Below the pieces are notes generated by a model. It did no database searches and was not told the origin of the DNA. It saw only the letters and a list, made by a program, of their open reading frames with translations. A stretch of 36,146 bases of DNA from a virus: positions 1-36,146 of IMG/VR virus record IMGVR_UViG_3300027861_000092. One strand, written 5' to 3'. This document shows positions 1-29,156 of the stretch, piece after piece (within the stretch, counting starts at the first letter, position 1; each line of letters opens with the position of its first letter). The translations under genes were made by a program, and so were the position numbers.

Positions 1-1514
1 CCTCCAGCAAATTTAGGATCAGTTTTTAATTCTGCACCAGTGATATATCTCACGCCAGATGCCTCTTTATTTCTTGTATTCGCAGCGTTCATTAGCGTTG
101 TAAAATTTGCCAAATCTTTTTCTTGCAGCATTGATTGTACTTTTTCTTGACCTCCCTGTACATGTACTCCATCGTCCCTGTCATAGCCCTGAAAAGCTTT
201 AGCTCTACTTGAATTATATTTTATTTTTTGTGAGTCTTTCCATTTCCCTTGAACACCAGTTCCAACTACTCTTTCACTACTCATTTCAATTGTCACTTTC
301 TTTCCTTCAGGTCTATACTTTTGATATTCCACGAGCCAAGCTTGTGTAGCTGCTTCATCTTGCTGTGCATTAACGCCATCTCTTACAACTTGTAAATCTG
401 CAGGGGTCCAAGGTGTGTCTTCAGTAGGATCAACAATTCCTGCATATGACTTCTTATTGCCTATCATTTCTTTCATCTTATCATCATTCACATTATTTAA
501 GAAATGCCAAGGAAGTTCTCCTACTTTAGTACCTTTAACTCCTCCATTTACTAATTCCCTTTTTCTCATTTGAGCCCAAAATTTAGGCATTTTTTGTGAA
601 TTTAAATCTTGGTTAATTTGATTACTTAATTGAGGATTGTTTTCTTCTATTGCTTGTAAGCTAGGATACGTTACAGTTTGTTGTTCAACCCATCGTGCTT
701 TACCACCTTCCCCTCGTTCTAATGTTTTAATCTTTTGCTTTGAATTATCCGCATCAAGCAACGTTTTAATACTAGACTTATAACGAGTGTCACTATATGT
801 AGATAGTAGGTCATCTTTTCCAACTAAATATGAATTTAAATCTTTACCATTTTTAGTATATGTTTCATATCTTGCGTTTAAGTTAGTACTTACCTCTTTT
901 CCGTTTTTATCAATCTTAACCATTTCAACTTGCCCGTTATCAAGCGTTTTCATTTTAAAGCTAGTATACTGACCGCCTTGAAATTTCATACCTTCTTCAT
1001 ACATAGCTTGACCACCTTCTACTGACATGTAAGTTTCATCAAATACACCAACGTTTGTACTCTTTTTAGATTTTGCTAGCTGGTTAGTTGATAACGCTTT
1101 TTGGTTATTAGCTACAAAAGTAGCGTTAGTACCAATCACTTTTATATTATACATAGCTTGAGATTGGAAATCCATATAATCATCTTTATCTTGCTGAGTT
1201 CCATTAGATCCGTAAGCTTTAGTATACTTTTTGTTTAAAGTACTAGCGGTTTCTCTAGCCCACGTTCTATTAGCTCTGTCCATTTGACCTACTAAACTTC
1301 CGTCAATTTTACCAAATTCACTAAGAAACTGATTTTGAACAGTTCTCGCTTCTTTATCAAGTGCTAACTCTTGAGCTTTTTTAGCTTTTTGATTTTTTAC
1401 TAAATTATCCATTGCAGTAGTTAGATTTTGATTCATTTGACCAAGAATAGCTACTTGCATTTCTGGTGCTTTGCTTAATTGATAATTAGGTAAATTTGGT
1501 TGTTGTGTTGCCAT
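1..1514 (-). CDS. Large internal virion (ejection-type) protein, 3' part beyond window
   Basis: Open frame from the ATG at 1514 to the left edge without a stop, giving the first 504 residues. The protein starts MATQQPNLPNYQLSKAPEMQ and is hydrophilic, rich in Gln, Lys and Ala, with long helical stretches (around residues 30-100) and no signal peptide or membrane segment in the visible part. I do not recognise a domain. It is the last visible gene of the head-tail block and follows a small Gln/Ala-rich protein with a hydrophobic N-terminus. This is the place where T7-like phages carry gp14-gp15-gp16 and crAss-like phages carry cargo proteins, so an internal or ejected virion protein is the best guess. 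The start lies 11 nt after the stop of the proposed frameshift extension of the preceding gene. It could instead be another large virion component. Confidence 0.6.
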   Translation of the reverse strand, partial: MATQQPNLPNYQLSKAPEMQVAILGQMNQNLTTAMDNLVKNQKAKKAQELALDKEARTVQNQFLSEFGKIDGSLVGQMDRANRTWARETASTLNKKYTKAYGSNGTQQDKDDYMDFQSQAMYNIKVIGTNATFVANNQKALSTNQLAKSKKSTNVGVFDETYMSVEGGQAMYEEGMKFQGGQYTSFKMKTLDNGQVEMVKIDKNGKEVSTNLNARYETYTKNGKDLNSYLVGKDDLLSTYSDTRYKSSIKTLLDADNSKQKIKTLERGEGGKARWVEQQTVTYPSLQAIEENNPQLSNQINQDLNSQKMPKFWAQMRKRELVNGGVKGTKVGELPWHFLNNVNDDKMKEMIGNKKSYAGIVDPTEDTPWTPADLQVVRDGVNAQQDEAATQAWLVEYQKYRPEGKKVTIEMSSERVVGTGVQGKWKDSQKIKYNSSRAKAFQGYDRDDGVHVQGGQEKVQSMLQEKDLANFTTLMNAANTRNKEASGVRYITGAELKTDPKFAG

Positions 1515-1525
1515 ATTATATTTTT

Positions 1526-1651
1526 TTATGTCCAACCTCCATAAGAGGTGTCGTCAATATTGTAATCTATAGTGTTAATACTTAAATCTGGAAGATTAGT
1601 AGGAATAGTAGTATCTGGGGTATTAGAGGCGCCTCCGCCTATGGATTTCCC
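1526..1651 (-). promoter_or_regulatory. Candidate -1 programmed frameshift site and C-terminal extension
   Basis: On the minus strand, positions 1651-1645 read G GGA AAT in the frame of the 216-aa gene, a heptamer of the X XXY YYZ type. A 5-nt spacer (CCATA, which includes the first two bases of the stop) is followed by GGCG-GAGG-CGCC (1639-1628), able to form a GC hairpin. After a -1 slip the frame reads TCC ATA GGC and on through 39 codons, ending TGG ACA TAA at 1526. The encoded tail is Thr/Asp/Asn/Pro-rich and protein-like and uses codons typical of this genome (ACT, GAT, ATT, AAT). The -1 frame is closed by TAG upstream (about 1678), so a switch must occur within about 40 nt. A one-base error or mutation is the alternative. 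Confidence 0.5.
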
Positions 1652-2289
1652 GCGTATGCTGCTCCCACACTGGCACTACCACTAACACCTTGCATCCAAG
1701 CAGCTTGAGATGCGTCGTTATAGGCTTGCTGTTGATTTCTTAAATAATCTGCTTCCGCTTGTTGTCTATTGATGTCAAATACCTCTCTTCCTTCTGCTAA
1801 CTGCCAGGCTTGTTGTTCTGCTCCAATAGCTGCTTGCTCTATACTCATTCTTTGCTGCTGTAATTGTTGTTCGCCTTGTGCTCTTAACTTTTGATTTTGA
1901 ACCTCTTGTTGTTCTATACTAGCCGATATTCCTTGTTTAGATTTAGCGGCGGCTTGTGCTAATGCTGTAGCTCCGCCACTTCCCATACCTGTCGCAACCA
2001 TACCCTCCATCATAGTAGCTAACGCTACGTCACTTTGTTGTTGTTGCATTTCTGCTGCTTGAGTAGCGACTCCTAGATTGGCATAAGTGTTACTTAATTG
2101 AGCTTTCATAGCTCTAATATCATCAGCTGCATTATAAATATCCTGTCTATTATTTATAAGTTGATCTACATTATTAGCTGCATTAATGACATCACCTTCC
2201 AGAGCCTCTGCTTTGTTTTTTTGAGAAATCGCACTTATCCCTCCTATTATTAATGGTGCTGCTATTGCAGCTACTATACCCATGCTCAT
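1639..2289 (-). CDS. Small internal virion protein, T7 gp14-like in position and composition
   Basis: 216 aa. Residues about 4-22 are strongly hydrophobic (MGIVAAIAAPLIIGGISAIS) and could insert into a membrane. The rest is Gln/Ala-rich amphipathic helix, including a QQQQ run near residue 80 and a long coiled-coil-like stretch at about 120-190. Small proteins with a membrane-active N-terminus that precede very large internal proteins are typical of short-tailed phage ejection machinery (T7 gp14 and analogues), and the order here fits. The start ATG overlaps the stop of the cupin gene (ATGA). The in-frame stop TAG at 1639-1641 directly follows a G GGA AAT slippery sequence, and the -1 frame stays open for 39 more codons to TAA at 1526-1528, so a longer 254-aa form may exist. 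Function is inferred from context only. Confidence 0.65.
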   Translation of the reverse strand: MSMGIVAAIAAPLIIGGISAISQKNKAEALEGDVINAANNVDQLINNRQDIYNAADDIRAMKAQLSNTYANLGVATQAAEMQQQQSDVALATMMEGMVATGMGSGGATALAQAAAKSKQGISASIEQQEVQNQKLRAQGEQQLQQQRMSIEQAAIGAEQQAWQLAEGREVFDINRQQAEADYLRNQQQAYNDASQAAWMQGVSGSASVGAAYAGNP

Positions 2290-27361: not shown

Positions 27362-27618
27362 AAAACTATGATCACGTCAGACTCTCTTATAACTGAATAT
27401 ATCTTTTTATTTATCTCTATTAAGTTACCACTAGCTATATCGAAGTATATTTTATCTTTCTTTTTTATTCCTTTTACCTCTGTCCCAACACTTAACACAT
27501 TAGCTTCTTGATATCTTATATCATTTCTTTGATTTTTCCCTAAAATTAATCCTCCAGTTGTTTCTATAGTAGCTGGATCAATAGGTTTTATGATTAAATA
27601 ATTTCCAACCGCTCTCAT
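27358..27618 (-). CDS. groES: Co-chaperonin GroES (Hsp10)
   Basis: 86 aa against 97 in E. coli. The first strand RAVGNYLIIKP (2-12) and the mobile loop at about 17-35 with Gly-Gly-Leu-Ile-Leu (22-26) match the GGIVL of bacterial GroES, where the hydrophobic tripeptide docks into the GroEL apical domain. The barrel strands ANVLSVG (39-45) and DKIYFD (55-60) follow. The roof hairpin is shortened and the C-terminal strand ends SDVIIVL. It caps the GroEL ring to form the folding chamber. It overlaps groEL by ATGA and comes after it, opposite to the usual bacterial groES-groEL order. Confidence 0.88.
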   Translation of the reverse strand: MRAVGNYLIIKPIDPATIETTGGLILGKNQRNDIRYQEANVLSVGTEVKGIKKKDKIYFDIASGNLIEINKKIYSVIRESDVIIVL

Positions 27619-29156
27619 GCTCTCACATTGTTAATTACACAATCAGTGGATAAAATAGTAGTAGCTACTGAAGCCGCGTTACGTAGAGCACTTTTAGTAA
27701 CTAGTAAAGGATCTATTATTCCGGACTTTACCATACTTACCGTTTTACCTGTAACCACATCTAATCCTTTTCCTTTTACTATTGGAGGTTCATAATTTAT
27801 TATACCAGCATTATTTAAAATTATTCTATAAGGAGCTTTAATAGCTTCTAATAAAATCTTTTCTGCGGGAGATTTAGGTTTTATATGATCTGCTGCATTT
27901 AGCAAAGCAATACCACCTCCTGGCACTATACCTTCTTTAATCGCGGCTTTTGTAGCACAAATAGCATCTTCTACTCTATCTTTCTTTTCTTTAAGTTCAA
28001 CTTCAGAATTAGCCCCTACTTTTACAATAGCTACTTTTCCAGTTAATCTTGACAATCTTTTTTCGTATCTTAACTTTAAATTAGTATTAGATGTTGATTC
28101 TATTTTATCGCGTAAGTTAGTTATTAGTGTATTTACTTCTTCAGACATTTCTTCTACTTGTAATATAGTTTCTATTCTATTACTAATAGCTTTCTTACAC
28201 CTACCCAAAGCATCAATACTTATTAAATCAATGTCATCTCCTAAATTTTCATTAATTATTGTTGCATTAGTTAGAGCTGCTAAGTCATCTAAAATTTCTT
28301 TACGGTTAATTCCGTGAACAGGAGCATCTATAATATTTACTTTAATATTACCTTTTACTTTGTTCATTGCTAATGCAGTCATTACTTGGGGATCTACATC
28401 AGCTATAATTAATAAAGATTCTTTTTCTTGTATAACATATTCTAATACACTTTGTATTTTCCTAATATTCTCTATTTTATTATCTAATATTAAAACGACC
28501 GGATTATCTAATTCTGCTGTATCTCTATCTTTATGTGTTACAAAATGTGAATTTTGAAATCCAGCTTCATATTGTACTCCTTCTATTTTTTCAATAACTG
28601 TATCCGGAGAATCGTTTGTTTCCATCATAACGATCCCGGTCTCATCTACAGCTTTAAATGCATCACTTATCAATTGACCTAGTTCTGCATCGTTATTGGC
28701 TGATATTGTGGCTACTTGTTTTATTTTTTCACCTCGTACTGGTAAGGCTACTTTCTCAAGATATTGCACCACTTTGTTAACAGCCAAATTAATTCCTTCT
28801 TTTAACTCCCTCGGCGATTCCGATTTTTGCGCTTTATAAGCTTCTTCTAGTATTGCATGCGCTAAAACCGTGGCAGTCGTCGTTCCGTCTCCTGCTTCTG
28901 TCACTGTTTTCCTTGCTGCTTCTTTTAGGAGTTTAGCTCCCATGTTCTCTACTGGATCTAACAATATAACTGAATTAGCTACTGTTACTCCGTCCTTAGT
29001 TATCTGTGGATTTCCTCGGTCGTCTTCCATTATTACACACTTACCGCTAGCCCCTAAAGTGGAACTAACGGCTCTAGTGAGTTTTTCTATACCTTCGTAT
29101 ATTTTACTTTTTGCATCCTTACCGAAGCTAAGATGCTTTACTATTGTCTCATTCAT
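27615..29156 (-). CDS. groEL: Chaperonin GroEL (Hsp60), phage-encoded
   Basis: 513 aa against 548 in E. coli. ATP-site motifs are intact: ITKDG (52-56, Asp55), GDGTTTA (89-95, Asp90) and RVEDA (394-398, catalytic Asp397), plus GIVPGGG (409-415). The apical substrate-binding segment reads GFQNSHF (199-205) where E. coli has GYLSPYF, so the hydrophobic face is altered (Tyr203 equivalent is His). The equatorial segment near residues 450-475 is several residues shorter, and the C-terminal GGM repeat tail is missing; the protein ends INNVRA. It uses ATP to fold proteins in the host cytoplasm, likely large phage structural proteins. No Shine-Dalgarno. Confidence 0.95.
   Translation of the reverse strand: MNETIVKHLSFGKDAKSKIYEGIEKLTRAVSSTLGASGKCVIMEDDRGNPQITKDGVTVANSVILLDPVENMGAKLLKEAARKTVTEAGDGTTTATVLAHAILEEAYKAQKSESPRELKEGINLAVNKVVQYLEKVALPVRGEKIKQVATISANNDAELGQLISDAFKAVDETGIVMMETNDSPDTVIEKIEGVQYEAGFQNSHFVTHKDRDTAELDNPVVLILDNKIENIRKIQSVLEYVIQEKESLLIIADVDPQVMTALAMNKVKGNIKVNIIDAPVHGINRKEILDDLAALTNATIINENLGDDIDLISIDALGRCKKAISNRIETILQVEEMSEEVNTLITNLRDKIESTSNTNLKLRYEKRLSRLTGKVAIVKVGANSEVELKEKKDRVEDAICATKAAIKEGIVPGGGIALLNAADHIKPKSPAEKILLEAIKAPYRIILNNAGIINYEPPIVKGKGLDVVTGKTVSMVKSGIIDPLLVTKSALRNAASVATTILSTDCVINNVRA

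Follow-up and report, generated by a model that had tools for sequence, protein, structure and literature searches.

Does every ribosome that reads the small structural-type gene at this locus stop at its TAG codon, or does a minority shift frame there and extend the protein? The window, meaning the whole 36,146-nucleotide stretch of DNA from a marine bacterial virus that was analyzed (IMG/VR IMGVR_UViG_3300027861_000092), carries a 216-aa ORF whose 3' end was described in an initial annotation as a canonical –1 frameshift cassette within a gp14-like internal virion protein gene. Programmed –1 ribosomal frameshifting, through which a minority of the internal virion protein encoded at the gp14 position is extended at its C-terminus (254 vs 216 aa), was found to be the reading that accounts best for the observations and is held with considerable confidence.

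The cassette in the window

The 216-aa ORF occupies 2289..1639 on the minus strand, as do all the features of the cassette, and its 3' end reads GCG GGA AAT CCA TAG. The slippery heptamer G GGA AAT (1651-1645) is in frame and conforms to X_XXY_YYZ. The spacer CCATA (1644-1640) separates it from the stem GGCG-GAGG-CGCC (1639-1628). A1640 and T1627 form a possible fifth pair, and the stem-loop AGGCG-GAGG-CGCCT (1627..1640) then begins 4 nt past the heptamer (5 nt if GGCG/CGCC alone is counted). The 0-frame stop TAG (1639..1641) falls within the spacer and the first stem base. In the –1 frame (1526..1645), 39 codons encoding SIGGGASNTPDTTIPTNLPDLSINTIDYNIDDTSYGGWT are followed by TAA (1528-1526). 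The ATG of the next gene lies at 1514, 11 nt beyond this TAA; that gene, in the gp15 position (1..1514, minus strand), is cut by the window edge and encodes at least 504 aa. The heptamer, spacer, stem, TAG, 39-codon open frame and 11-nt gap reported in the initial annotation were thereby confirmed base for base.

No ATG, GTG or TTG codon occurs within the extension of the window, so an ordinary independent start there is unlikely, and independent initiation was rejected. By itself, the hairpin of the window does not exceed dinucleotide shuffles of its own sequence in stability (z about 0); the evidence for it therefore rests on comparison across relatives.

According to the proposed mechanism, most ribosomes would terminate at TAG and release the 216-aa internal virion protein. 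The stem-loop would pause a minority of ribosomes while GGA occupies the P site and AAT the A site. These ribosomes would shift back by one nucleotide on the heptamer and translate the 39 further codons, yielding a 254-aa form in which the helical body is unchanged. In the absence of protein or reporter data, slippage itself, its efficiency, a fixed ratio of the two forms, the presence of both in the virion and the function of the tail are all inferred. AAT is generally a weaker slippery A-site codon than AAG in E. coli, which counts against this reading. The same A-site codon is also found in relatives L002, L162, L211 and L233. A peptide example from the extensions is DLSINTIDYNIDDTSYGGWT.

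Identity of the protein and related systems

The gene is placed in the gp14 position of a putative ejection-protein operon, in which a small gp14-like gene would be followed by a gp15-like and a very large gp16-like gene. T7 itself has the order gp14-gp15-gp16, which is described for ejection operons (PMC8954989). This order, from the small (216 aa) gene through a gp15-like to a large gp16-like gene, is also found here. On the contig of L002, the nearest relative, two ORFs come after the family gene: one of 561 aa, the counterpart of the truncated gp15-position gene, and one of at least 2902 aa. The latter, in the gp16 position (L216 1921-10626), runs off the contig, and part of it, towards the end, resembles a polynucleotide kinase (phrog_415, E 5e-8). 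The portal and terminase match those of Flavobacterium Elemovirus, Cellulophaga Callevirus phi38:1 and related phages, and group with podoviruses. Elsewhere in the window, a GroEL-like chaperonin is encoded at 27615-29156 on the minus strand (phrog_5725, E 7e-138).

The 216-aa protein has several hundred relatives in IMG/VR. With hhalign (95%, E 2.7e-8), a homologue of the family was identified in phi38:1: gp099, whose annotation is 'structural protein' and which precedes structural genes of 549 aa and 1691 aa. The AlphaFold2 model of the protein is helical throughout its core, with a mean pLDDT of 78. The best BFVD match of this model is an 'Internal virion protein' (E 1.5e-3), and several weak fold matches are likewise internal virion proteins. 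Alignment of the model to T7 gp14 (8e4g_a) with VIA-align gave Z 7.4, tied with unrelated helical proteins, and Foldseek and VIA searches of the PDB revealed no decisive fold. With hhalign, the family profile had no significant match to T7 gp14 (probability 0.3%), and comparisons with Elemovirus gp20 and with the MW202828 gene were not significant either. Pfam gave no match for the window protein, and no homologue was found in INPHARED by tblastn. Ejection proteins are known to share little sequence even between phage groups (PMC8954989).

Gene order, homology to phi38:1 gp099 and the helical fold speak for the 'gp14-like' label of the initial annotation, and the same three lines support the identification as a virion protein, but significant sequence similarity to T7 gp14 is lacking. 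The gp14 position is well supported, while homology to gp14 is unproven. Given this position in an ejection operon, the most probable role of the extended form is that of a minor subunit in the internal core or the ejected channel, although location in the capsid and ejection are both inferred.

The alternative that survives best, while still unlikely, accepts the frameshift but takes the gene for an assembly chaperone of the lambda G/GT type and not for an internal virion protein. Lambda G/GT uses the heptamer GGGAAAG and is located before the tape measure gene. Both systems have an X_XXY_YYZ heptamer close to the 0-frame stop and a small gene placed before large structural genes, and in both the minor product (inferred here) is extended at its C-terminus. 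The lambda products, however, are chaperones and are absent from the virion (PMC5009743), whereas the phage examined here groups with podoviruses by portal and terminase, and its homologue in phi38:1 carries a structural annotation. Moreover, the extensions in this family are only 15-45 aa long, modular and exchangeable, and the weak fold matches to internal virion proteins also argue against a chaperone. No tape-measure or tail-tube family was matched by the window proteins scanned; single family members gave weak tape-measure matches, of the kind that helical proteins give.

Phage –1 frameshifts are known mainly in tail chaperones, capsid genes and major tail genes. A 2016 review (PMC5009743) names tail genes of the lambda type together with several examples from capsids and tails. 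The capsid gene gp8 of Kuravirus YF01 has a –1 frameshift with GGGAAAG near its stop (PMC9965538). In this gene and in T7/T3 gene 10 (10A/10B), as proposed here, a podovirus produces a virion protein with a minor extended form; both precedents encode major capsid proteins, whereas here a small ejection-operon gene is concerned. Proteins of the T7 gp14 / P22 gp7 type and phi38:1 gp099 are alike in size, operon position and helical prediction, the ejection-protein class being described as 181-240 aa with these features (PMC8954989), and with gp099 there is sequence homology as well. They differ in that no report of frameshifting was found for them, and T7 gp14 is not matched significantly by the family profile. 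In the open-licence literature searched, and in the passages of PMC5009743 consulted, frameshifting had not been described for any ejection protein. In its parts, the cassette corresponds to standard –1 frameshift sites; it represents a known mechanism in a gene class for which no report of frameshifting was found.

If the frameshift reading is correct, a DNA-injection machine would contain its smallest subunit in two forms, and this would also point to –1 frameshift signals operating in phages of Bacteroidota. Since standard gene calling ends at the 0-frame stop, such tails would go unrecorded when abundant marine phages are annotated.

Conservation and recurrence of the cassette

L002, identified as the nearest relative in the viral-contig scan, lies on a separate contig and is 81-83% identical. 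In its 3' end, GGG GGA AAT CCA TAA, heptamer and stop position are both retained, with a stop codon different from the TAG of the window. The stem reads AAGCG-GGGA-CGCTT compared with AGGCG-GAGG-CGCCT in the window; G-C is replaced by A-T at pair 1639/1628, and pairing is kept. The last 19 residues of the two extensions are identical (LSINTIDYNIDDTSYGGWT). A scan with the extension only gave no match beyond the L002 contig.

L002 thus passes the check proposed with the initial annotation, namely a homologue in which heptamer, hairpin and extension are conserved while the 0-frame stop is kept, and the description as a canonical –1 frameshift cassette is supported. Homologues with the extension in frame and no stop would have refuted it; for the extension of the window, none was seen among the relatives examined. 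Relatives L003-L005 (about 70-74% identity) have no extension, and the next gene begins straight after the stop. As these closest cassette-free relatives manage without a tail, it appears from the sequences to be dispensable for the protein.

Broader scans gave a family set of 238 distinct 3' ends. A cassette was scored where GGGAAAN or AAAAAAG/C lay no more than 6 nt from the 0-frame stop, the –1 frame continued for 10-60 codons past the stop, and any overlap into the next gene was at most 10 nt. Cassettes were present in 20/238 family 3' ends and in none of 534 further ORFs with a minimum length of 150 aa from these same loci (Fisher p 3.4e-11). These counts are not independent by descent; as judged from them, recurrence exceeds chance. 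Fifteen of the 20 cassettes have GGGAAAN and five AAAAAAG/C, and the extensions typically stop 9-20 nt short of the next gene. The heptamers of L022, L035 and L011/L012 were discounted as chance occurrences, as the –1 frame either enters the next gene or ends within nine codons.

A perfect stem (score at least 11) starting 3-7 nt after the heptamer was observed in 14 of the 20 cassettes compared with 17% of randomly chosen positions at these loci (p 3e-7); 9 of the 218 non-cassette family members met this criterion. Relative to dinucleotide shuffles of the same 40 nt, hairpin stability was only weakly negative on average (mean z –0.7). The stem is apparently a signal across loci and not within one sequence.

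On a tree of 159 family cores, the cassette label needs 12 changes, at least eight of which are forced by well-supported branches; the cassette has therefore been gained or lost many times. The tree was built by a quick method and has open forks, and 15 cassette rows were labelled at that stage.

The recurrence bears on a second alternative, in which a 254-aa in-frame gene was split either by a recent frameshift mutation or by an indel error in sequencing or assembly, and nothing is programmed. The window sequence is without raw-read support, and one pair of relatives does show a tail in frame: L070 has a frameshift tail (PPVEVGEEWGSYTPSL) with homology to the one that L087 encodes in frame (PPTEVGETWGSYTPTL), with a score of 82 vs a shuffle maximum of 38. 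Nevertheless, the same apparent break occurs at the same heptamer in L002, on its separate contig and with its different stop codon, and cassettes with heptamer and stem recur in the family and not in the other ORFs. GGGAAA with a downstream stem is, in addition, not an expected target of random indels. Because cassettes recur with both elements, the L070/L087 pair looks like exchange between two tail encodings and not like error. An indel artefact was rejected on the strength of L002 and the family recurrence, and this explanation as a whole is considered very unlikely.

Even less can be said for transcriptional slippage as the source of the long form. Polymerase slippage is conceivable on the A-run heptamers (AAAAAAG/C) of five family members, but the window and 14 others have GGGAAAN, with identical-base runs of only 3-5, and a stem at ribosomal spacing fits frameshifting.

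The C-terminal tails

The divergence of the tails was compared between relatives. Homologous extensions were grouped as window/L002, L106/L112/L200, L109/L132, L150/L161, L162/L211 (with L233 similar) and L169/L344. When six pairs of relatives were pooled, pS was 0.39 and pN 0.17 in the –1 frame (p 6e-7). Amino-acid-level selection is thus observed on the extensions, which on this sequence evidence evolve under constraint in the –1 frame; for window/L002 alone the matter is unresolved, and the pair by itself does not demonstrate selection (pS 0.22, pN 0.16). The idea that the region is a non-coding or regulatory element between genes (a terminator or RNA processing hairpin), with a frame open by chance, can draw on the hairpin at the gene end, which in the window has no T run after it, and on element types other than a terminator not being excluded, but it is scarcely tenable against pN below pS over six pairs, open –1 frames that mostly end just before the next gene, and the homologous in-frame protein tail of L087.

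The type of heptamer can differ over a conserved tail: it is AAAAAAG in L106 and L112 and GGGAAAG in L200. L162 and L211 are far apart on the core tree, yet have homologous frameshift tails (YTRSELMxxFGGAxVK). This pattern suggests that tail and cassette may travel jointly by recombination.

Taken over the family, the C-terminus seems to behave as a modular slot that is empty, filled in frame, or filled by frameshift. A wider interpretation is offered only tentatively, with somewhat less than even confidence. In a widespread family of ejection proteins of marine Bacteroidota podoviruses, the C-terminus would be an exchangeable slot, and recurrent gain and loss of the cassette would provide a defined minority of tailed subunits, a few specialized subunits in an otherwise symmetric ejection channel or core. 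Within the family, gain and loss of the cassette and its conversion to in-frame tails are replicated naturally many times over.

A further tail, SDRRLKKNI..., follows the core in frame in 12 of 159 others (L014, L016, L101, L103, L111, L117, L119, L126, L130, L174, L181 and L190), where it makes up the C-terminal 75-90 aa or so. Pfam Peptidase_S74 (PF13884) matched this tail above the cut-off in L117 (5.6e-6) and just below it in several. The tail resembles the Peptidase_S74 intramolecular chaperone, and a chaperone of the tail-fibre type is unexpected on a gp14-position protein.
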